From NCBI GenBank assembly GCA_022984795.1, contig JALIHJ010000020.1, forward strand, positions 1 to 64,000: a DNA stretch of 64,000 nucleotides, written 5' to 3'. The translations under genes and the position numbers were made by a program. This document shows positions 13,197-32,897 of the stretch, one piece after another (position 1 is the stretch's first letter; each line of letters opens with the position of its first letter). Source of the stretch: Fabrea salina. Lineage: Eukaryota > Ciliophora > Heterotrichea > Heterotrichida > Fabreidae. Below the pieces are notes generated by a model. It was not told the DNA's origin and did not search any database. It was given only the letters and a program-made list of their open reading frames with translations.

Positions 13197-14450
13197 TTAC
13201 TTAAGTTCATTTATTCTTTTTTTACTTCTTTCAAACCTCCTTTTAATCTCGTTTTTACAGAAAACTTGCATGTGAGTAGAGTAGAGCTGCGACTCTATCC
13301 AAGTGTGCCACTTGTGGAAAGGGACTTGGTCTTTCAGGGCTTTTTTGTACAGTTCTTCAAATGGCAAGTTTTTTTCTTTTTTCAAAAGTGGCGAGTTCAT
13401 CTTAACAGCTTCGCCTGCAAAGTAAAAGTACTGCTTGTCAGCAAACTGGTTGAAGTTGGTTTCGTTCCTTCTGAAGTAGCAGTGTTCAATCGGGCCTTCG
13501 ATCTCCAGTCTTTTTTTGTTCTTGTTCAAGAAAATTTTATCTTCGTCTAAAAAGGAATCTTCGTCCAAACTCGCCAGCTCGGTTTTCAGTGAAAATGACT
13601 GATGTCTGGGTGTTTTGGACTTTGTTTTTAAGTTTCTTTGTTCTGCAATCATAAGTTCTTCTTGTAAGTGCTCAGCTCTGGTGCTGGCTAGGGCGTACAT
13701 TTTCGAGGTATCATCAAGGCTTTTCTGCATGCTTTCTAATTCTGAATTCAACTCTTCAACTTGGTTTTTGAGCGAGTTGTTTTGTTCAACTAACTTGCTT
13801 TGTTCTGCTTCTAGTTTTTTTACTTGGTTTTTGAGTGAGTTGTTGGTTCCTTCAGAGTGTCTGAGTGACTCTTCTAGTTTCTCTAGTTGGGTTTCTAGGT
13901 CTTTGTTTTCTTTGGAGAGTTGTTTAAGTGCAGAGGAGTGCTGGTCTTTGAGTTGCTGGAGTTGGGAGTTGTGTTGTTGGGCCAAGTCAGCTTTTTCTTC
14001 AGAAAGAGCTTTGAGTTTGCTCAGTTCTTTCTGCAGTTGGTGGTTTTCTACTTGGAGTTGATTAGCATGATCTTCAGAATGTACCATTTCAGTGTGTAGT
14101 TTCAGGTAGTTTTTTTCTGCTTCTTCAAGTCTTTCTTCAAGGATTTGGACTTCATTTTGCAGAGAAATTCTACGATCACTTTCTCTCACTCGAGTCTCTT
14201 CCTCTTCGTTTCTAAGGTCTTCGTTTTTTTGGAGAAGCATCCTTGCAATTCCTACAGCTGCTTGGAGTTCCCTTTCTTTTTCAGTCAGCAATGAAACTAT
14301 TTCTTTGTACTTTGCTCCAATATCCTCTTCATCAGATTCCAAACTGTTGTCCAGAAGTGACACTTCTAGTTGGTTAGAAATAGAGTCAAGCATTTCTTTG
14401 AGTTCTTCTTGGTCTGCGTCTGAGAAGTCTTCACTTCCTAGTGTTTCCAT
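13197..14450 (-). CDS. Coiled-coil protein with CC1-box-like motif, tandem paralogue A
   Basis: 417 residues. An acidic N-terminus is followed by LQAAVGIARMLLQKNEDL (about residues 62-79), which resembles the CC1 box of dynein adaptors (BICD, BICDR, Spindly, TRAK), and then a long coiled coil to about residue 270. The C-terminal 140 residues form a different, basic domain with aromatic residues (FHKWHTWIESQLYSTH) that I do not recognise. The coiled coil shares a 303-bp identical tract with the neighbouring paralogue B. By family analogy it may link dynein or kinesin to cargo; this is inference from the motif only. Confidence 0.85.
   Translation of the reverse strand: METLGSEDFSDADQEELKEMLDSISNQLEVSLLDNSLESDEEDIGAKYKEIVSLLTEKERELQAAVGIARMLLQKNEDLRNEEEETRVRESDRRISLQNEVQILEERLEEAEKNYLKLHTEMVHSEDHANQLQVENHQLQKELSKLKALSEEKADLAQQHNSQLQQLKDQHSSALKQLSKENKDLETQLEKLEESLRHSEGTNNSLKNQVKKLEAEQSKLVEQNNSLKNQVEELNSELESMQKSLDDTSKMYALASTRAEHLQEELMIAEQRNLKTKSKTPRHQSFSLKTELASLDEDSFLDEDKIFLNKNKKRLEIEGPIEHCYFRRNETNFNQFADKQYFYFAGEAVKMNSPLLKKEKNLPFEELYKKALKDQVPFHKWHTWIESQLYSTHMQVFCKNEIKRRFERSKKRINELK
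13746..14048. repeat. 303-bp identical tract, copy in paralogue A
   Basis: By eye every base matches 15556-15858. It encodes the middle of the coiled coil (from NHQLQKELSKLK to NQVEEL). Flanks diverge at once on both sides, as after gene conversion. Confidence 0.9.
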
Positions 14451-14481: not shown

Positions 14482-16266
14482 TTAATTAATGATTCTAATG
14501 TCAATAGCCTTTGACTTCTTGGAGCTGTTTTCTTGGTAGTGCTTTATTTTGAAACTGAACCTAAAAGACTTGTCTTTCAAAACAGCTCTTTTAAACCTTT
14601 TGTAGTCAATTCCTGACAAAATAATATCGTCTTCGCACAAAAATATGTCTTTTTTGTCTTTATCACAACAAATAAACCCAAACCGTTTCTTAACGATGTA
14701 GAACTTCAAACTCCCAGTGAACCTTTTCTGAGTAGCAGTTTCAACGTGGAACTCCCCTCTTCTTTGTCGTTTCATCAGCCTCTTGCTTAACCTTCCACTT
14801 TGTTCTAGGGTGTTTTTTGGTTCTTCGTTTGCTTTTTGGGACTTTAAAGTTGAGCAGTACTCAGGCAAACCTCCTAAGGTGAACCTTCTGGGTTTCGAAG
14901 CTAACGGAGGAGGAGTTAGTTCTTTGTTTGAGTCAATTAAGTTTTCGTGCGAAGTTTTTAAGTCTGCATTTTGGGGAGTTAGGGACTTAGAAGTTTTTTT
15001 CCCGAGACTTAAAGCTAGGTGGAAATTTTCAATGGGAATTTTTTTGTTGAAAAATAAGTTTTTTTGCCTCAAGTTCTTTTCTGAAGAAACTTTAAACACT
15101 TTTAGGCCCTCAATTGTCTTTTCAAGTGAAGGACTTTTTAGTTCTGAACAAACTTTCTTCAGCTCTGTTTCACTCAGTTCAGTAAAGTCTGAGCCTTCAA
15201 GGGGTTTTTCACTTAAAACCAAGTACTGCGGACTTTGTGAAGGCTTGAAAAAGATTTCAGTTGGTCCTTTGACTTCTAAAGGCAAACTTTGTTCAGTATT
15301 GAACCTTGAAGTACTTAAGAATACTTGGTCTTCATCAATGAGTTGGTCTGTGCCCAAACTTGCAAGTTCTAAGTCAAGGGAAAATGTTTGGTGCTTGGGA
15401 CTTTCAAGCTGGTCTTTTAAGTTGCACTGTTCAAGAATGTTGATTTCTTCTTCCAACCTTTCAATTTTCGAAAGACTATGCCAGTACTTTTTTGACTTTT
15501 CCTCCACTTCTTTCCTCATCTCGTTCACTCTAGACTTAGTTTCAAAGTTCTCGTTATTCAACTCTTCAACTTGGTTTTTGAGCGAGTTGTTTTGTTCAAC
15601 TAACTTGCTTTGTTCTGCTTCTAGTTTTTTTACTTGGTTTTTGAGTGAGTTGTTGGTTCCTTCAGAGTGTCTGAGTGACTCTTCTAGTTTCTCTAGTTGG
15701 GTTTCTAGGTCTTTGTTTTCTTTGGAGAGTTGTTTAAGTGCAGAGGAGTGCTGGTCTTTGAGTTGCTGGAGTTGGGAGTTGTGTTGTTGGGCCAAGTCAG
15801 CTTTTTCTTCAGAAAGAGCTTTGAGTTTGCTCAGTTCTTTCTGCAGTTGGTGGTTTTCAGTTTGAGTTAAAGTTAGTTGTTCCTTAGCTTGTTTAAAATT
15901 TTGATGTTCACTTAGGAACTTTTGTTCAGTTTCTTTCAGCTTATTGTCTAAGCTTTGTATTTCTTGTTGCAAGTTGGCTCTGCGCAGCCCCTCTTTTTCT
16001 AAAGTTTCTTTTTCTAGCAAGTCTAGTTCTTCGTTTTTTTGAAGTAGCATTTTAGCTATATGTATAGCAGCGTGCAATTCTTTTTCCCTTTCTTCTAAAC
16101 GATACTTCAAGTCTTCAACACTCGAATTTAAGTCTGGATCCTCAGAAGTACCTTTGATAAGTTTGTTGGAGTCAGAGGTTTCTAGTTCTTCGGATAAAAA
16201 ATTAAGCATCTCACGTAGTTGGTGGTGGTCTGTTTCTGAAAAGTCTTCACTACTTAGAGTTTCCAT
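14482..16266 (-). CDS. Coiled-coil (CC1-box-like) protein fused to a cold-shock-like domain, paralogue B
   Basis: 594 residues. The N-terminus (METLSSEDFSETD) and the CC1-box-like motif (LHAAIHIAKMLLQKNEEL) match paralogue A, and the coiled coil runs to about residue 285. A low-complexity, Ser- and Lys-rich linker follows. The last 75 residues read GSLKFYIVKKRFGFI.., then KDIFLCEDDI and a final strand pair ending AIDIRI. The order and spacing fit a cold-shock domain, with an RNP1-like KRFGFI and RNP2-like DIFLCE. Such domains bind single-stranded RNA or DNA. A motor-adaptor-like coil joined to a nucleic-acid-binding fold suggests an mRNA or RNP transport adaptor, an inference. The stop is TAA. 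Confidence 0.85.
   Translation of the reverse strand: METLSSEDFSETDHHQLREMLNFLSEELETSDSNKLIKGTSEDPDLNSSVEDLKYRLEEREKELHAAIHIAKMLLQKNEELDLLEKETLEKEGLRRANLQQEIQSLDNKLKETEQKFLSEHQNFKQAKEQLTLTQTENHQLQKELSKLKALSEEKADLAQQHNSQLQQLKDQHSSALKQLSKENKDLETQLEKLEESLRHSEGTNNSLKNQVKKLEAEQSKLVEQNNSLKNQVEELNNENFETKSRVNEMRKEVEEKSKKYWHSLSKIERLEEEINILEQCNLKDQLESPKHQTFSLDLELASLGTDQLIDEDQVFLSTSRFNTEQSLPLEVKGPTEIFFKPSQSPQYLVLSEKPLEGSDFTELSETELKKVCSELKSPSLEKTIEGLKVFKVSSEKNLRQKNLFFNKKIPIENFHLALSLGKKTSKSLTPQNADLKTSHENLIDSNKELTPPPLASKPRRFTLGGLPEYCSTLKSQKANEEPKNTLEQSGRLSKRLMKRQRRGEFHVETATQKRFTGSLKFYIVKKRFGFICCDKDKKDIFLCEDDIILSGIDYKRFKRAVLKDKSFRFSFKIKHYQENSSKKSKAIDIRIIN
15556..15858. repeat. 303-bp identical tract, copy in paralogue B
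   Basis: Partner of 13746-14048, at a constant offset of 1,810 bp with no gaps. Confidence 0.9.
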
Positions 16267-16285: not shown

Positions 16286-16300
16286 AAAACTCAGTGTTTT
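16286..16300 (+). repeat. Target-site duplication, left copy, of SINE-like copy 2
   Basis: AAAACTCAGTGTTTT, repeated identically at 16507-16521. In minus-strand reading this copy retains the old gene end: GAG TTT TAA. Confidence 0.8.
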
Positions 16301-16506
16301 GGAAAGCTGGTAGCGGTCGACTACCTGGTAGCAGAGGTGGTACTACCCTTGCCTGCACAAGGGGAGTCACGAGGGACCTGCGAGCCCGCGCACGCCATGC
16401 TATCAGATTAGCCGGAGGACAAGGAACACGTGGCCGCGGGCCCTACGGGGTATGGCTAGGACAGCTGACTGTGGTTTTCGAAAAACTCTTATTAATTTAT
16501 TAATTA
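16301..16506 (+). mobile_element. SINE-like insert, copy 2 (longer copy)
   Basis: About 206 bp of strikingly GC-rich sequence in an AT-rich spacer, flanked by a 15-bp perfect direct repeat. Its 3' half aligns in order with copy 1 (blocks CAAGGAACAC and GACAGCTGAC). It ends in an AT tail (TTATTAATTTATTAATT). The extra 5' part contains TAGCAGAGGTGG, close to a tRNA-type A box, and a stem CCCTTG/CAAGGG. No good B box is visible, so RNA polymerase III origin is unproven. It is not a known family to me. The insertion fell in the stop codon of the minus-strand gene 16403-17251 and supplies its last 30-odd codons. Confidence 0.75.
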
Positions 16507-17251
16507 AAAACTCAGTGTTTTTTAAGTCAAGCACTGCATTGAGTAGTTTGTTCTTCATTGCTCTAGCTAAGTTGTGTTTTTCACAGAACTCGTCCACTAC
16601 AGTTTCTGGTTCATCGTCAAGGTAAAGTAGTAAAAGCCTTTTTTGGTTTTTGCCAATGTTAACTTCAATTGCTAAGGGTTCAGGTTCACTGGAGTTGTTT
16701 TGGGACTCCTGGTCTGCTTCTGAAAGAGCCTGTTTTATTCCAGAAACACTGAAGAACCTATTGAGTTGGCTGCTTTGGGAAACAAACTCTTGCGTAGTTA
16801 TTGTGTTTTGAGGAAAGTTTCTTTCGACAAAGGAACTTACAACAGCACTTTGTTTGGAGTAAAGGCTGGAAGAGTCCCCTTGAATTGGTAAAATGCTGGA
16901 AGTTGCCACTAAGTCTTCCAAGATGTTTGCTAGTTCTTGTTTGGACAAGTACGTTTTTTTGGAGTAAACTTGAAGAACCAAGGAGGCTTTTTCTGAAGGT
17001 TCTCCTTTGCCCAAAAGAATCCCAACTAAGCAAAGGTTTTTGTAGAAGTCTCCTTGTTTTAGCTGTGAAAAAAAAGTTTCTTTTTGTATTCCTGCAAGTC
17101 CTAGTTTTTCCAGTATGGTTTCGAGACTTAAAGGTCCCTGAAGTATCTCACTTAAAATTACTTTTGAGGGAACTTGGCTTTCCAGTTCAGAGGTTTCTTG
17201 GAGGATCAAAGACCCAGTTTCTCTGTTAGGCTTTGCCTCACAACAACCCAT
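16403..17251 (-). CDS. Probable N-myristoylated protein with inserted C-terminus
   Basis: 282 residues as now read. The start MGCCEAK is a strong N-myristoylation and palmitoylation signal, placing it at membranes. The middle is helical and Ser-rich. A compact module follows (about residues 195-245: PLAIEVNIGKNQKRLLLLYLDD..., then EFCEKHNL), a ubiquitin-like strand/helix pattern common in ciliate proteins. The ancestral end was KNTEF then TAA, still visible in the distal target duplication. The insertion removed the stop, so translation now runs 30-odd codons into the SINE-like insert and ends at TGA. Function is unknown. Confidence 0.8.
   Translation of the reverse strand: MGCCEAKPNRETGSLILQETSELESQVPSKVILSEILQGPLSLETILEKLGLAGIQKETFFSQLKQGDFYKNLCLVGILLGKGEPSEKASLVLQVYSKKTYLSKQELANILEDLVATSSILPIQGDSSSLYSKQSAVVSSFVERNFPQNTITTQEFVSQSSQLNRFFSVSGIKQALSEADQESQNNSSEPEPLAIEVNIGKNQKRLLLLYLDDEPETVVDEFCEKHNLARAMKNKLLNAVLDLKNTEFLINKLIRVFRKPQSAVLAIPRRARGHVFLVLRLI
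16507..16521 (+). repeat. Target-site duplication, right copy, of SINE-like copy 2
   Basis: Identical to 16286-16300. It codes for the former last residues (KNTEF) of the minus-strand gene. Confidence 0.8.
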
Positions 17252-26069: not shown

Positions 26070-29000
26070 ATGTCAGAAGTTCACCACAGAGTTGAATCTA
26101 GGGTTTTTTATTCGCAGTGCGATGACTTGAACTCGTTGCAAAAATTCCAGGGCAACTACATCAGCACTACTAAATACAATTCACTCACTTTCCTTCCAAT
26201 AAGTTTATTTGAGCAGTTCAAGCGAGTTGCCAACATCTACTTCCTCATCACAGCTGTTCTTCAGTCTATTCCAGAGATTTCTCCCCTACACCCCTTTTCA
26301 GCAATAGCTCCACTGCTGTTTGTGCTGGGAGTGAGTATGGCCAGAGAAGGCGTAGAAGACTACCTCCGCTACAGGTCTGACAAAGAAACCAATGCCACTC
26401 CCACCATGGCCTACAGGGAAGGCCACTTCAAGGAGGTCAAGTCTCAAGACGCTAGGGTAGGAGACTTGCTTTTGATTCGCAAGAACGAAAGTTTCCCCTG
26501 CGACATCATAATGCTTTCTAACTCCAACGAGAACGGAGTAGCATTCATCGAAACTTCTACTTTGGACGGAGAAAAGAACCTCAAACCTAGGCAGGCCTTT
26601 GGACCTACCTTAGGGTTGATGAATGAATCAAGCCCTATAAGGTTTTGTTCAAAAATTGAATGCGAACTCCCTAACTCAAAGATCTATGAGTTCAATGGAA
26701 CTCTTGAATACAAAGACAAAAAATACTCTGTAAACAAAAACAACATACTGCTGTGTGGAGCTTTTTTGCGGAACATAGACTGGGCAATAGGAGTAGTTGT
26801 CTACACTGGAAATGAAACCAAGTTAAGGCAGAACTTGATGTCCAGGAAGTTCAAACAAAGCAACATTGAGAGGAAAGTCAACTACTACATAGGCTACATC
26901 TTATTTATCCAGTTCATAATGTGCCTTTTGGGAGGAGTGGGGTCAGGAGTATGGACTTCAAATGAATGGGGAAGTCATCAGTATATGGGCTCAAAAGACT
27001 ATGAAGCTGGACTGCAGGGGTTTTTGACTTGCTTTACTTATTTCATACTTTTGAACACAATGCTTCCTATCTCGCTGATTGTAACAATTGAACTGGTTAA
27101 AGTAATCCAGGGATTCTTTATGATTAAAGACTTACAAATGTATAGTCACCTCAGAGACAGACCTTGCAAGGTGTCTTCTTTCAGTTTAAATGAAGAATTG
27201 GGAATGATCCAGCATATCTTCACTGACAAAACCGGAACTCTCACTCAAAACAAAATGCAGTTTAATTCCTGTACTATTGGTACTACATCTTACGAACTAG
27301 ATACTCACGAGATTCTATACCAGTTTTCAGGAATTGAGAATCCTCGAAATAGCTTTAGCAGAAAGATTGTAAGTTCAGATTCTACCAGTTCAACTGATCA
27401 AAATGGTAAAAACAAACAATCCGATTCCCTTCGCGACCTATTCTTCAAGTGCCTTTCATTATGTCACGAGTGCTTGGTGGAGAAGGAAGAGTCTGGGGCT
27501 AAGTACATTGGGCAGAGTCCCGACGAGATTGCTTTGGTTGACTATGCTAAGTCGGTTGGTTACCAGTTCCTCGACGTTAAGTCCGACATCCTCCAGCTTG
27601 CAGTGCCTTCGGGCTCTGTTTGCAAGTACCAGAAACTGTGCTTGTTTGAGTTCGACTCTGACCGCAAACGCAACTCAGTGGTGCTCAAGGACCTGCAGAC
27701 TAACCAGTACTTGATGTTCATCAAGGGTGCTGACAACGTGGTTTCGGAAGTGCTGAGTGACCACAACCCTGACTCGATAGTCTCGAGTGTCAACCAGAGT
27801 CTTTCGGACTACGCCAAAAGGGGACTGAGGACTCTGTTGGTAGGCTACAAGGTGTTCAGTGAAGAGGAGATTGCTAGGTTCAAAGCAGACTACCAGGAAG
27901 CTGGCTCAGCAATCCAGGACAGAGACTCCAGGGTCAAGGAAGTGGCTGACAAGTACGAAAGGGACATCTACTTACTGGGCTGCACAGCAGTGGAGGACTC
28001 ACTCCAGGACCAAGTGCCCACTGTCATCAACGACCTACTGTGTGCTGGACTGAAGGTGTGGATGCTCACTGGCGACAAACTCGAAACTGCCGAAAACATC
28101 AGCAGGACCTGCTCACTAGTCAAGGACACCTTCTTCGTGGAGACCTGTCCTGCCCTCAGTCTGCAGGAGTGCCACCAGCGCTTCAGGGAGATCGACAAGA
28201 ACTTCCAAACCGCCAAAACCCGGGACCTAGCTCTGATCGTTTCGGGAGAGTCTCTGGAGTACGTGCTGTACGACTCCAAGAACCCCGAAAAAGTAGTTAA
28301 GTACCCCGACATCTCCCAAAGCCAAGACTCCCGCCAACTAGCCCAAAACATCCGAGAAACCTTCTTGAAGTGGGCTTCGCAGTGCAAAGCCGTGACCTGC
28401 TGCAGAGTAACTCCAGGCCAGAAAAGAGAAGTAGTCAAACTCATGAAAGACCACTCAGGCTGCACCTCACTCTCCATCGGAGACGGAGCCAACGACGTGT
28501 CCATGATTCTGGAAGCTCACGTAGGAGTGGGACTCTACGGCGAAGAAGGAATGCAGGCTGTGCAAGCCGGCGACTACGCTGTGGGGGAGTTCAAGTTCCT
28601 CTGGAACCTGTTGCTTGTCCACGGCAGGTTCAACTACATACGCCAAAGCGAAATGATCATGTACTTCTTCTACAAAAACTTAGTCTTCACCATGCCCCAG
28701 TTCTTCTTCATGTTCTACTCCGCCTTCAGTGGTCAGACTGTTTATGATGATTGGTACATCACTTTTTATAACATGGTGTTTACAGCCCTACCTTTGATGA
28801 TTAGAGCTATATTTGAAAAAGATATTCCACTTCCAAGAGACATAAATCCTTCTATGAAAAGGCAAGAAAACATGGGTGAATTCATGGAAAGGTTTCCCCA
28901 AACCTACGAAGTAGGAAGAGAAAACCAAATATTTACCAAGATCAATTTTGCATGCTGGATGTTTGTAGGTGTTTTTCACTCAGTTTTGGTGTTTTTTATT

Positions 29001-29423
29001 CCTTTATACTCAGCAGACGAAGGAGTTTTGAACGGAGACGGGGAAACCCATAACTTGTGGACATTTTCAATAACATCTTTTTCTTGTGTGATCCTAGTAG
29101 TGAATCTAAAACTAGTATTTCACACAAAACTATGGAACTACTTTTACTTGATTTCTATAGTTTTTCTGAGTGTGATTTTATACTTTGCTTTTTTGCCAAT
29201 CTACGACGGAATGACTTCTACTGAAGCCCACGGCGCATTCCCAGTGTTGGTGTCTTCTAGTTACTTCTACTTCAATATGCTGCTGAGTGTGGTGTTTTTG
29301 CTTTTGTTCGACGGAGGTTATCGCCTTTGCATGATGAATCTTAAACCTACTCAAAGCGAAGTTTTGACTAGAATGCTCCAAGAAAAAGCTGATAACAACT
29401 ATAAACCTAGGGTAAAGGAGTAA
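26070..29423 (+). CDS. P4-type phospholipid flippase ATPase, tandem copy 1
   Basis: 1,117 residues. The catalytic DKTGTLTQNKM, KGAD, TGDKLETA and GDGANDVSMI motifs are all present, with about ten membrane spans. The N-terminal FKRVANIYFL region is typical of P4-ATPases. The actuator loop reads LDGEKNLK where most P4 enzymes have DGET. These enzymes move aminophospholipids to the cytosolic leaflet, usually with a CDC50 partner (none in this window). It shares long, almost identical tracts with copy 2, while the variable loop after the DKTGT region and both C-terminal membrane halves differ. Confidence 0.95.
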   Translation: MSEVHHRVESRVFYSQCDDLNSLQKFQGNYISTTKYNSLTFLPISLFEQFKRVANIYFLITAVLQSIPEISPLHPFSAIAPLLFVLGVSMAREGVEDYLRYRSDKETNATPTMAYREGHFKEVKSQDARVGDLLLIRKNESFPCDIIMLSNSNENGVAFIETSTLDGEKNLKPRQAFGPTLGLMNESSPIRFCSKIECELPNSKIYEFNGTLEYKDKKYSVNKNNILLCGAFLRNIDWAIGVVVYTGNETKLRQNLMSRKFKQSNIERKVNYYIGYILFIQFIMCLLGGVGSGVWTSNEWGSHQYMGSKDYEAGLQGFLTCFTYFILLNTMLPISLIVTIELVKVIQGFFMIKDLQMYSHLRDRPCKVSSFSLNEELGMIQHIFTDKTGTLTQNKMQFNSCTIGTTSYELDTHEILYQFSGIENPRNSFSRKIVSSDSTSSTDQNGKNKQSDSLRDLFFKCLSLCHECLVEKEESGAKYIGQSPDEIALVDYAKSVGYQFLDVKSDILQLAVPSGSVCKYQKLCLFEFDSDRKRNSVVLKDLQTNQYLMFIKGADNVVSEVLSDHNPDSIVSSVNQSLSDYAKRGLRTLLVGYKVFSEEEIARFKADYQEAGSAIQDRDSRVKEVADKYERDIYLLGCTAVEDSLQDQVPTVINDLLCAGLKVWMLTGDKLETAENISRTCSLVKDTFFVETCPALSLQECHQRFREIDKNFQTAKTRDLALIVSGESLEYVLYDSKNPEKVVKYPDISQSQDSRQLAQNIRETFLKWASQCKAVTCCRVTPGQKREVVKLMKDHSGCTSLSIGDGANDVSMILEAHVGVGLYGEEGMQAVQAGDYAVGEFKFLWNLLLVHGRFNYIRQSEMIMYFFYKNLVFTMPQFFFMFYSAFSGQTVYDDWYITFYNMVFTALPLMIRAIFEKDIPLPRDINPSMKRQENMGEFMERFPQTYEVGRENQIFTKINFACWMFVGVFHSVLVFFIPLYSADEGVLNGDGETHNLWTFSITSFSCVILVVNLKLVFHTKLWNYFYLISIVFLSVILYFAFLPIYDGMTSTEAHGAFPVLVSSSYFYFNMLLSVVFLLLFDGGYRLCMMNLKPTQSEVLTRMLQEKADNNYKPRVKE
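27433..28756. repeat. Conversion tract in P4-ATPase copy 1
   Basis: About 1,324 bp matching 30859-32182 with only a few substitutions noted by eye, at a constant offset of 3,426 bp. It encodes the nucleotide-binding and hinge regions and is more GC-rich than the flanking divergent parts. Shorter near-identical tracts occur upstream, around 26300-26610, 26740-26915 and 27150-27270. Confidence 0.88.
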
Positions 29424-29465
29424 TCATTTCGTCAGTTTCTGTTTGTTTGAATCAGTAACTAATAA

Positions 29466-32400
29466 ATGTCAACTGTAAATTCCGCAGAAGAAAAGCGTAT
29501 CTTCTATTCCCAATGCCAAGAGTTGAACTCTCTGCAGAACTTTCAAACCAACTACGTAAGTACTACTAAATATAACCTACTCACTTTTCTTCCTGTGAGT
29601 TTGTTTGAACAGTTCAAGCGAGTTGCCAACATCTACTTCCTTATGATCGCAGTGCTCCAGTCTATTCCTGAAATATCGCCTTTGATGCCTTACACAGCAA
29701 TAGCTCCACTGCTGTTTGTGCTGGGAGTGAGTATGGCCAGAGAAGGCGTAGAAGACTACCTCCGCTACAGGTCTGACAAAGAAACCAATGCCACTCCCAC
29801 CATGGCCTACAGAGAAGGCCACTTCAAGGAGGTCAAGTCTCAAGACGCTAGGGTAGGAGACTTGCTTTTGATTCGCAAGAACGAAAGTTTCCCCTGCGAC
29901 ATCATAATGCTTTCTAACTCCAACGAGAACGGAGTGGCATTCATCGAAACTTCTACTTTGGACGGAGAAAAGAACCTCAAACCTAGGCAGGCCTTTGGAC
30001 CTACACTTGATGAACTGAAGAATCACAACAAGATTAGACTGTTTTGCGAAATAAAATCCGAAATCCCTAATCCTCGGATCTACCAATTTAACGGTTCAAT
30101 AGATTACAGAGGAACAAGCTTCCCACTAGACAAAAACAACATACTGCTGTGTGGAGCTTTTTTGCGGAACACAGACTGGGCAATAGGAGTAGTTGTCTAC
30201 ACTGGAAATGAAACCAAGTTAAGGCAGAACTTGATGTCCAGGAAGTTCAAACAAAGCAACATTGAGAGGAAAGTCAACTACTACATAGGCTACATCTTAT
30301 TTATCCAGTTCATAATGTGTCTACTTGGCGCAGTGGGTGCTACTTTTTGGACAAATTTAAACTGGGAAAGCCATAGATACTTGGGGGACCAAGAAAACAG
30401 CAGTGGCTTGCAAGGGTTTTTGACTTACTTCACTTACTTGTTGTTGCTGAACACAATGCTTCCTATCTCACTGATCATATCTTTGGAAATGATCAAACTA
30501 ATTCAAGGCCTATTTATGCAGAAGGACCTAGACTTATACAGCCAAGTCAGAGACAGACCTTGCAAGGTGTCTTCTTTCAGTCTAAATGAAGAATTGGGAA
30601 TGATCCAGCATATCTTCACTGACAAAACCGGAACTCTCACTCAAAACAAAATGCAGTTTAATTCGTGCACTGTTGGAAAGTTTGAATTAAATAGAAATGA
30701 CTCTGATCCTTTCGAAAATAAGTTAAAGAACTTAGATGTTTCTTTCCAGGAATCGGAAAGTCTGAATTCTTTGTTTGCTGAACAGATACAAAAGTCTTAT
30801 GGAAATAATGACACCCAGGTGTCTGACCAGATCAATAGTAATATATACCTTGAAATCTGCGACCTATTCTTCAAGTGCCTGTCATTATGTCACGAGTGCT
30901 TGGTGGAGAAGGAAGAGTCTGGGGCTAAGTACATCGGGCAGAGTCCCGACGAGATTGCTTTGGTTGACTATGCTAAGTCGGTTGGTTACCAGTTCCTCGA
31001 CGTTAAGTCCGACATCCTCCAGCTTGCAGTGCCTTCGGGCTCTGTTTGCAAGTACCAGAAACTGTGCTTGTTTGAGTTCGACTCTGACCGCAAACGCAAC
31101 TCAGTGGTGCTCAAGGACCTGCAGACTAACCAGTACTTGATGTTCATCAAGGGTGCTGACAACGTGGTTTCGGAAGTGCTGAGTGACCACAACCCTGACT
31201 CGATAGTCTCGAGTGTCAACCAGAGTCTTTCGGACTACGCCAAAAGGGGACTGAGGACTCTGTTGGTAGGCTACAAGGTGTTCAGTGAAGAGGAGATTGC
31301 TAGGTTCAAAGCAGACTACCAGGAAGCTGCCTCAGCAATCCAGGACAGAGACTCCAGGGTCAAGGAAGTGGCTGACAAGTACGAAAGGGACATCTACTTA
31401 CTGGGCTGCACAGCAGTGGAGGACTCACTCCAGGACCAAGTGCCCACTGTCATCAACGACCTACTGTGTGCTGGACTGAAGGTGTGGATGCTCACTGGCG
31501 ACAAACTCGAAACTGCCGAAAACATCAGCAGGACCTGCTCACTAGTCAAGGACACCTTCTTCGTGGAGACCTGTCCTGCCCTCAGTCTGCAGGAGTGCCA
31601 CCAGCGCTTCAGGGAGATCGACAAGAACTTCCAAACCGCCAAAACCCGGGACCTAGCTCTGATCGTTTCGGGAGAGTCTCTGGAGTACGTGCTGTACGAC
31701 TCCAAGAACCCCGAAAAAGTAGTTAAGTACCCCGACATCTCCCAAAGCCAAGACTCCCGCCAACTAGCCCAAAACATCCGAGAAACCTTCTTGAAGTGGG
31801 CTTCGCAGTGCAAAGCCGTGACCTGCTGCAGAGTAACTCCAGGCCAGAAAAGAGAAGTAGTCAAACTCATGAAAGACCACTCAGGCTGCACCTCACTCTC
31901 CATCGGAGACGGAGCCAACGACGTGTCCATGATTCTGGAAGCTCACGTAGGAGTGGGACTCTACGGCGAAGAAGGAATGCAGGCTGTGCAAGCCGGCGAC
32001 TACGCTGTGGGGGAGTTCAAGTTCCTCTGGAACCTGTTGCTTGTCCACGGCAGGTTCAACTACATACGCCAAAGCGAAATGATCATGTACTTCTTCTACA
32101 AAAACTTAGTCTTCACCATGCCCCAGTTCTTCTTCATGTTCTACTCCGCCTTCAGTGGTCAGACTGTTTATGATGATTGGTATATATCCTGCTACAATAT
32201 GATTTTTACAGCACTGCCACTAATGATCAGAGCTGTGTTTGAAAAGGACATCAACATACCTAAAATAAGAGAAAATTCTTTGCAAGAAATATCTAACCGT
32301 ACTTTTGACGAACTCAGCCCAAGCCAACTGGTGATTAAGCTTCTGCCAAAAGTGTATGAAGTAGGAAAAGAAAACCAGATATTTACCAAAGAGAATCTGG

Positions 32401-32897
32401 GATTTTGGTTGTTTTCAGGGTTCTTCCACGCAATGCTGGTGTTTTTCATCCCCTTCTTTGGAGCAGATTTAGGAATAATGAACTCAGATGGACATACTCA
32501 CGACTTATGGAGTTTTTCAATAACATCTTTTACAGCAGTGGTTTTTGTAGTAAACGTGAAGTTAGTTTTTTACACTCACTTGTGGAACGGTTTTCACCTA
32601 GCATCGATTCTGCTGTCTAGTCTTTTGGCATACTTTATTTTTATAGTGATTTATGACACCGTAACTACTACTGCTAGCTACTCCACCGTGGGGCACCTAC
32701 TAGACAGTTCTTACTTTTACGTGTGTGTGATTTTGATAGTGGGAATTGTGGTAGTGAATGACGGAACACTCAGACTAGCCAAGTTAGTGTTCTTTCCCAG
32801 CAAAAGCGACGTGTTGTCTCGTTTCTCAATAAACATTAAAAAAAAGGACAGAAACACTGGAAGCATCTATAAAAACGTACCACAGTTAAGCCACTGA
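29466..32897 (+). CDS. P4-type phospholipid flippase ATPase, tandem copy 2
   Basis: 1,143 residues, same architecture and motifs as copy 1, 42 bp downstream on the same strand. The insert after the phosphorylation site is about 26 residues longer and unrelated in sequence (begins KFELNRND). The last 240 residues (membrane spans 7-10) are clearly diverged. The DGEK variant of the actuator motif is shared. The stop is TGA, with a TAA one codon on. The pattern suggests specialised lipid or partner selection at the C-terminal membrane half with a common ATPase core, an inference. Confidence 0.95.
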   Translation: MSTVNSAEEKRIFYSQCQELNSLQNFQTNYVSTTKYNLLTFLPVSLFEQFKRVANIYFLMIAVLQSIPEISPLMPYTAIAPLLFVLGVSMAREGVEDYLRYRSDKETNATPTMAYREGHFKEVKSQDARVGDLLLIRKNESFPCDIIMLSNSNENGVAFIETSTLDGEKNLKPRQAFGPTLDELKNHNKIRLFCEIKSEIPNPRIYQFNGSIDYRGTSFPLDKNNILLCGAFLRNTDWAIGVVVYTGNETKLRQNLMSRKFKQSNIERKVNYYIGYILFIQFIMCLLGAVGATFWTNLNWESHRYLGDQENSSGLQGFLTYFTYLLLLNTMLPISLIISLEMIKLIQGLFMQKDLDLYSQVRDRPCKVSSFSLNEELGMIQHIFTDKTGTLTQNKMQFNSCTVGKFELNRNDSDPFENKLKNLDVSFQESESLNSLFAEQIQKSYGNNDTQVSDQINSNIYLEICDLFFKCLSLCHECLVEKEESGAKYIGQSPDEIALVDYAKSVGYQFLDVKSDILQLAVPSGSVCKYQKLCLFEFDSDRKRNSVVLKDLQTNQYLMFIKGADNVVSEVLSDHNPDSIVSSVNQSLSDYAKRGLRTLLVGYKVFSEEEIARFKADYQEAASAIQDRDSRVKEVADKYERDIYLLGCTAVEDSLQDQVPTVINDLLCAGLKVWMLTGDKLETAENISRTCSLVKDTFFVETCPALSLQECHQRFREIDKNFQTAKTRDLALIVSGESLEYVLYDSKNPEKVVKYPDISQSQDSRQLAQNIRETFLKWASQCKAVTCCRVTPGQKREVVKLMKDHSGCTSLSIGDGANDVSMILEAHVGVGLYGEEGMQAVQAGDYAVGEFKFLWNLLLVHGRFNYIRQSEMIMYFFYKNLVFTMPQFFFMFYSAFSGQTVYDDWYISCYNMIFTALPLMIRAVFEKDINIPKIRENSLQEISNRTFDELSPSQLVIKLLPKVYEVGKENQIFTKENLGFWLFSGFFHAMLVFFIPFFGADLGIMNSDGHTHDLWSFSITSFTAVVFVVNVKLVFYTHLWNGFHLASILLSSLLAYFIFIVIYDTVTTTASYSTVGHLLDSSYFYVCVILIVGIVVVNDGTLRLAKLVFFPSKSDVLSRFSINIKKKDRNTGSIYKNVPQLSH
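30859..32182. repeat. Conversion tract in P4-ATPase copy 2
   Basis: Partner of 27433-28756. One non-synonymous difference is visible (Gly to Ala in the EAGSAIQ/EAASAIQ segment); the other differences seen are silent. Confidence 0.88.

Follow-up and report, generated by a model that had tools for sequence, protein, structure and literature searches.

The fusion gene and its genomic setting

The window, a 64-kb stretch of DNA, contains 48 long and uninterrupted open reading frames (ORFs) of at least 150 aa, antisense frames included. Several of them match eukaryotic Pfam families. The GC content is 42.9%. All three standard stop codons are in use, and the stops of 26 selected window ORFs are TAA in 22 cases, TGA in two and TAG in two. 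One gene on the reverse strand, termed FUS here, forms a single frame of 594 codons that is open throughout (Table 1). Its product unites two protein families in one chain, each of which also occurs apart from the other in the same 18.3-Mb genome (103 contigs). The whole of FUS finds eight places in this genome, its own locus among them. Along the chain AIHIAKMLLQKNEEL occupies residues 67-81, within a heptad coil, and KRFGFI and DIFLCE follow near the C-terminus. A preliminary description had reported a CC1-box-like motif, a long coil and these two cold-shock-like motifs in the ORF, and all of them are present as described.

Table 1. Features of FUS and of its tandem neighbour PAR (positions are those of the window).
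Feature	Position	Strand	Remarks
FUS, whole fusion gene	14482..16266	(-)	594 aa, ATG to stop, ORF intact
FUS residues 1-337, part common with the adaptor-like coiled-coil family	15256..16266	(-)	60% identity to PAR, 35% to the C6 paralogue, 32% to the C10 paralogue
Long coiled coil, FUS residues 58-290 (ends approximate)	15397..16095	(-)	Heptad periodicity
CC1-box-like segment EKELHAAIHIAKMLLQKNEEL, FUS residues 61-81	16024..16086	(-)	L64, A67, A71, L74 and N78 in heptad core (a/d) spacing
303-bp FUS tract identical to PAR 13746-14048	15556..15858	(-)	Two other longer aligned pieces 72% identical
FSLDLELASL, FUS residues 295-304	15355..15384	(-)	Conserved SLxxE[LIF] just past the coil, at the site of the Spindly motif in known adaptors
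FUS residues 395-594, part common with the stand-alone cold-shock family, TPPP linker included	14485..15084	(-)	Alignment with four stand-alone proteins
Predicted cold-shock (OB) domain, FUS residues 514-594	14485..14727	(-)	Pfam below cut-off, PDB profile, model, fold comparison
RNP1-like KRFGFI, FUS residues 527-532	14671..14688	(-)	
RNP2-position DIFLCE, FUS residues 540-545	14632..14649	(-)	Cold-shock His is Cys
PAR, tandem neighbour	13197..14450	(-)	417 aa; N-terminal half as in FUS; usual family C-terminal domain; without cold-shock domain
Family C-terminal domain in PAR (AVKMNSP..LYKKAL..VPFHKWHxWIESQL)	13200..13436	(-)	8-member alignment; absent from FUS

Just upstream of FUS, at window positions 16300-16505, lies a GC-rich element, roughly 205 bp long, that is repeated in the genome. 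It matches at 100% on contig C29, at 99% on C81 and at 73-75% at five more places, and the window copy differs at its start. The element belongs to no Rfam family, and its single-sequence fold is not clearly better than those of shuffled sequences. A double change is seen at 4 of 50 predicted pairs, in an alignment of four sequences of which three are nearly identical. It is a candidate for a multicopy RNA gene or a short repeat. An ORF of 282 aa at 16403-17251 has no convincing family, and its true end may differ because the 3' end runs into the GC-rich repeat.

The coiled-coil family and its CC1-box-like core

In a whole-genome search, the N-terminal part of FUS matches its tandem neighbour PAR and genes on contigs C6 and C10. 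With the C6 paralogue as the query, full-length relatives on C92 and C7 are added. Two outer relatives (a second C6 gene and one on C37) match at the C-terminus only, and a relative on C40 matches at 27% over residues 59-385. A C-terminal domain of about 60-80 residues (EYFxLTxQAxKLNSPyxdxI...LYxKAxxxxVPFHKWHxWI) is common to PAR, L005, L008, L039 and L040 and to the outer members L041-L043 (eight sequences aligned). In other words, the five other close paralogues all end in a domain that FUS is without. The three pieces of it that were scanned have no Pfam family, and it is possibly the cargo domain of this adaptor-like family.

In each of the four paralogues tested, the heptad score over the 225 residues from the box onward is higher than that of all 300 composition shuffles. 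At 0.1485 nm per residue the coil would measure 32-34 nm in four paralogues, which is near but not equal to the 35-39 nm given for the CC1 coil of several adaptors (PMC9481740, excerpt). Just past the coil, SLxxE[LIF] is found in six of six paralogues, 206-230 residues after the core Ala. Against the full Spindly motif, L-theta-x-E-theta, the theta at position 2 is present in one paralogue of the six, and that one is not FUS.

The CC1 box of known adaptors is defined by AAxxG in the first coil (PMC9481740, excerpt). This canonical form is absent from all six close paralogues, which have A[IV]xIA in its place (A67-I68-H69-I70-A71 in FUS). The Gly has been changed to Ala, and the second Ala to Ile or Val, in every one of them. 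Around the box E61, L64, A66, A67, I70, A71, L74, L75 and N78 are invariant in all six. Small residues occupy two neighbouring core positions (Ala67 and Ala71) throughout, with Ala replacing Gly, in a register that was taken from the spacing and from an alignment with BICDR1 and not from a structure. In Spindly, Ala23 and Gly27 sit at core positions; so do Ala43 and Gly47 in BICD2, where they form a cavity for side chains of the light intermediate chain (PMC9481740, excerpt). Through the BICDR1 alignment these Ala and Gly residues correspond to Ala67 and Ala71 of FUS, so the small core is kept, with Ala for Gly. In a pull-down of the light intermediate chain, the negative control was Spindly with both Ala residues changed to Val (PMC9481740, excerpt).

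A tolerant CC1 pattern, [DE]L..A[AVI].[ILV][GA]..LL..N, which was composed after the sequences had been seen, was run over 2.71 million six-frame residues, mostly from phage contigs, and finds the six paralogues and nothing else. The preliminary description had made its reading depend on conservation of the motif in orthologues. With paralogues standing in for these, conservation extends to all six close members but to none of the three outer ones (L041-L043).

Is this likeness more than that of any coiled coil to any other? A profile of the six N-termini, run against 177,635 PDB sequences, places TRAK2 at rank 1 (E 9.7e-5) and four BICDR1 sequences at ranks 2-5 (E 1.4e-4 to 3.1e-4). The next match is a GCN4-tropomyosin chimera at E 0.071, and there are 20 matches at E up to 10. 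A profile of four N-termini has BICDR1 at ranks 1-3 (E 0.0057, 0.0057 and 0.01), in register on the CC1 box, among 15 PDB matches at E up to 10. In contrast, a control profile from the rest of the same coil in four paralogues yields 203 matches with generic coils in the lead. Among the best 60 of these 203, BICDR1 is found at ranks 39-40, and the generic coils are interspersed with NDEL1 at rank 15 and JIP3 at rank 48, both of them linked to dynein. A profile comparison with BICD, HAP1/TRAK and Spindly had been suggested in the preliminary description; the N-terminal profile puts TRAK2 and BICDR1 first, and the control finds mainly generic coils. Kinship with CC1-type adaptors beyond a generic coil is well supported for the family profile; FUS alone would not prove it.

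Single sequences give a more mixed picture. Pfam HAP1_N (PF04849) is the top match of the L040 N-terminus (E 3.9e-7, 30.0 bits), but its cut-off of 33.9 bits is reached by none of the N-termini scanned, of which L040 is the best and FUS scores 14.8 bits. The E-values are 0.016 for FUS, 0.010 for PAR and 0.0098 for L008, and L005 has no match. For L039 the type III secretion coil family YscO (E 1.9e-4) comes ahead of HAP1_N (E 3.8e-4). When HAP1_N is run against the whole genome there are eight weak matches, none above the cut-off and one of them at the L040 gene. This search is uninformative by itself because four control prokaryotes match too. L018, a candidate from the same search, is without the CC1 pattern and was set aside.

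A cold-shock module

The C-terminal part of FUS matches four stand-alone proteins on C53, C31, C32 and C62 (E 1.6e-30 to 1.1e-23), with matches starting at residues 421-493. The start of the common part at residue 395 was judged by eye from the alignment. Used as queries, the C62 protein (E up to 0.01) and Pfam CSD (E up to 0.1) return the same five cold-shock loci, and only FUS is fused. A sixth and weak cold-shock place lies on C20 (E 0.04). In viral contigs the cold-shock part has 104 pattern matches, none of them a confirmed relative.

Pfam CSD (PF00313) matches the last 102 residues of FUS at E 1.1e-4 (22.4 bits) and the whole protein at 18.4 bits. Both scores are short of the cut-off of 27 bits, which of the five members only L007 (contig C62) passes, at 29.9 bits; L003, L004 and L006 score 18.1-20.6 bits. 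Against the PDB, a profile built from all five members has a cold-shock protein as its best match (E 1.6e-5). An AlphaFold2 model of the module (pLDDT 86) also matches cold-shock folds. A single-sequence AlphaFold2 model of residues 493-594 (pLDDT 39.7) was discarded. The preliminary description had expected an OB barrel here, and a five-strand barrel that matches cold-shock folds is indeed predicted, although the test is partly circular. In the model, strand 3 is followed by an additional helical insert, about 20 residues long.

KRFGFI of RNP1 is kept in FUS, and residues 513-594 carry a net charge of +12. At the RNP2 position, where 30 cold-shock sequences from phage contigs have His almost without exception, all five family members have Cys, and the residue after it is Glu (four) or Gln (one). 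The Trp of KWF is Phe in the same five. The two substitutions suggest that the RNA face is altered.

Origin of the fusion

An economical history for FUS is a tail swap. A coiled-coil adaptor gene would have been duplicated in tandem, giving PAR and FUS, and one copy would then have lost the family C-terminal domain and gained most of a cold-shock gene in its place. Between the two neighbours 303 bp are identical, while the two other longer pieces that align are 72% identical. This points to later or recent gene conversion or copying between them.

Both parts of FUS look constrained. Over residues 1-135, dN is 0.53 and dS is 1.59 between FUS and PAR. The cold-shock part has a dN of 0.39-0.47 against all four of its relatives, with synonymous sites saturated. 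These pairwise values mix both lineages and are no proof for FUS alone.

A second tandem pair in the window, phospholipid-translocating P4-ATPase genes at 26070-32897, encodes proteins that are 78% identical. Two stretches of this pair, 852 and 394 bp long, are identical in DNA and lie between diverged ones, a patchwork of gene conversion like that of FUS and PAR.

Candidate dynein and dynactin partners in the same genome

A dynein light intermediate chain (DLIC; E 4.4e-60) is encoded at L009 1495-2712, and its sequence ends in TLHQFYQRLLEKGSKDKKDNS. FYQRLL (FYxxLL), at the extreme C-terminus, resembles adaptor-binding helix 1 of animals. In that helix two phenylalanines and two leucines, with FFxxLL spacing, are needed for adaptor binding (PMC6336354, excerpt), and FYQRLL has the same spacing. 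The pattern [FYW][FYW]xxLL in the last 40 residues is found in one of 71 distinct genome ORFs of at least 250 aa that were examined, and that one is the L009 DLIC. A second DLIC gene, L010, is without the FYxxLL tail, and a comparison of the DLIC tail with the PDB gave no match. As for dynactin, a p62 match and two dynamitin places are above the Pfam cut-off. The p150 model has no match in any genome searched, a kind of search that cannot show absence. The adaptor reading of the preliminary description gains from this, as part of the machinery that it requires (a DLIC with FYxxLL, p62 and dynamitin) is present.

What might FUS do?

At the level of sequence, it is clear that FUS has a two-family make-up with a CC1-box-like core, a long coil, a conserved post-coil motif and a predicted cold-shock fold, in a genome that also encodes a DLIC with an FYxxLL tail. 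What these parts do together is a matter of interpretation. We infer, tentatively and with somewhat less than even confidence, that FUS is a tail-swapped CC1-type dynein adaptor that would link RNA directly to dynein. That it is a natural single-chain RNA adaptor, in which a CC1-type activating adaptor has acquired an RNA-binding domain of its own by exchanging its tail for a cold-shock module, is possible and is put forward a shade more cautiously. FUS would form a parallel dimer, the small-residue core of which would accept the light-intermediate-chain helix while the coil would lie along dynactin. RNA or an RNP would be held at the far end by the pair of basic cold-shock domains, and this cargo would travel toward the minus ends of microtubules with no further protein to bridge adaptor and RNA. 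The preliminary description had proposed much the same, and the anatomy that it relied on (a CC1-box-like motif, a coil and a cold-shock domain in one chain) stands. However, the strict AAxxG does not, and the RNP2 His has been changed to Cys, and for these two reasons a function as an mRNA/RNP adaptor is weakened.

What if the coil did come from a CC1-type adaptor but is now only a dimerising stalk? In this scenario, which is rather unlikely, FUS would be a dimeric RNA chaperone or translation regulator that works without dynein. The changed CC1 consensus and the loss of the family's own tail would fit, as would the weakness of FUS on HAP1_N, where it is the lowest of the three matching N-termini (FUS, PAR and L008) and below L039 and L040 too. 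Nevertheless, FUS retains the conserved core residues and, past the coil, SLxxEL, and dN is well below dS in the comparison with PAR, although that value is pairwise and mixes both genes. Perhaps, conversely, the dynein end is real and the difference is in the cargo. The cold-shock barrel could be a hook that binds a protein partner and not RNA, for which a helical insert in the model and the altered RNP2 His and KWF Trp of all five members might be taken as signs. This is less probable still, given that the RNP1 aromatics and the basic charge are retained, and single-stranded nucleic acid is the ligand of most cold-shock domains studied so far.

Two further explanations are less likely again. 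One is that FUS is not made as a single chain and that its two parts are separate genes, united only in the gene model owing to an unseen tiny intron, an internal promoter or a fault in the assembly. The ORF has 11 GT..AG stretches of 15-16 nt, which leave room for tiny introns, and near-identical tandem copies, here with an identical tract of 303 bp inside, can be misassembled. However, the frame is open from end to end, the ORF contains no GTA..TAG stretch of 15-16 nt, the identical tract lies within the coil and not at the junction of the two parts, and the genome search places no further cold-shock gene next door. An artefact of this sort is improbable. Across the window, a count of tiny-intron motifs found the 15- and 16-nt classes not to be enriched. 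The other is that this is a structural family of the cytoskeleton or basal body, with a CC1-box likeness due to chance and no motor-adaptor kinship. That single N-termini match assorted coiled-coil Pfam models (E 1.9e-4 to about 2e-3), and that three outer members are without the CC1 pattern, is what such a family might produce. What it would hardly produce is a profile for which the first five PDB sequences are all CC1-type adaptors while the control finds mainly generic coils, and chance likeness is very improbable.

Comparison with known systems

If the tail-swapped adaptor reading is correct, having both ends in a single chain would make reconstitution simpler, with one adaptor and RNA added to dynein-dynactin. 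It would also mean that adaptor tails are replaceable by RNA-binding modules, with exchangeable cargo modules in this lineage, and it would place CC1-type adaptors in a ciliate. For FUS, this genome supplies built-in controls in its five close paralogues of conventional make-up.

Several known adaptors share features with FUS. The dynein-kinesin adaptors TRAK and HAP1 resemble it in a CC1-box region that is in register by profile, a long coil next to it and a conserved post-coil motif. They differ in that FUS has the second Ala and the Gly of AAxxG changed, is below the HAP1_N cut-off, has no TRAK tail that could be seen and carries a cold-shock domain instead. The likeness to Spindly (SPDL1) consists of a core Ala followed by a small residue and of the spacing between the CC1 box and the post-coil motif, about 230 residues; in Spindly the two lie at about 23 and about 256 (PMC9481740, excerpt). 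However, the strict Spindly motif is absent from FUS. With BICDR1 and BICD2 the CC1 box lines up in register, the core Asn that follows LL included, and the coil is similar in length. For the BicD family, the genome has no match above the cut-off and a single weak one (E 0.011). RNA reaches BicD by way of a partner such as Egalitarian, and the best-known mRNA transport by dynein uses a chain of proteins of this kind, in which Egalitarian, for example, stands between the RNA and BicD.

From the side of the RNA, FUS departs from cold-shock proteins and from the domains of Y-box proteins, UNR and Lin28 in the Cys for the RNP2 His, the extra helical insert and the coiled-coil partner domain. Yeast already offers a coiled coil that couples mRNA to a motor, the role proposed for FUS. 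This adaptor, She3, works with a myosin and with She2 and is not known to have a cold-shock domain. Pfam SHE3 matches L039 at E 0.017 only, which is not evidence of kinship. Among the titles and starts of abstracts returned by searches of the open-licence PMC literature, none describes a fusion of a cold-shock domain with a dynein adaptor. What sets FUS apart is this combination, in which an adaptor scaffold of the CC1 type is joined to a tail of the RNA-binding type.
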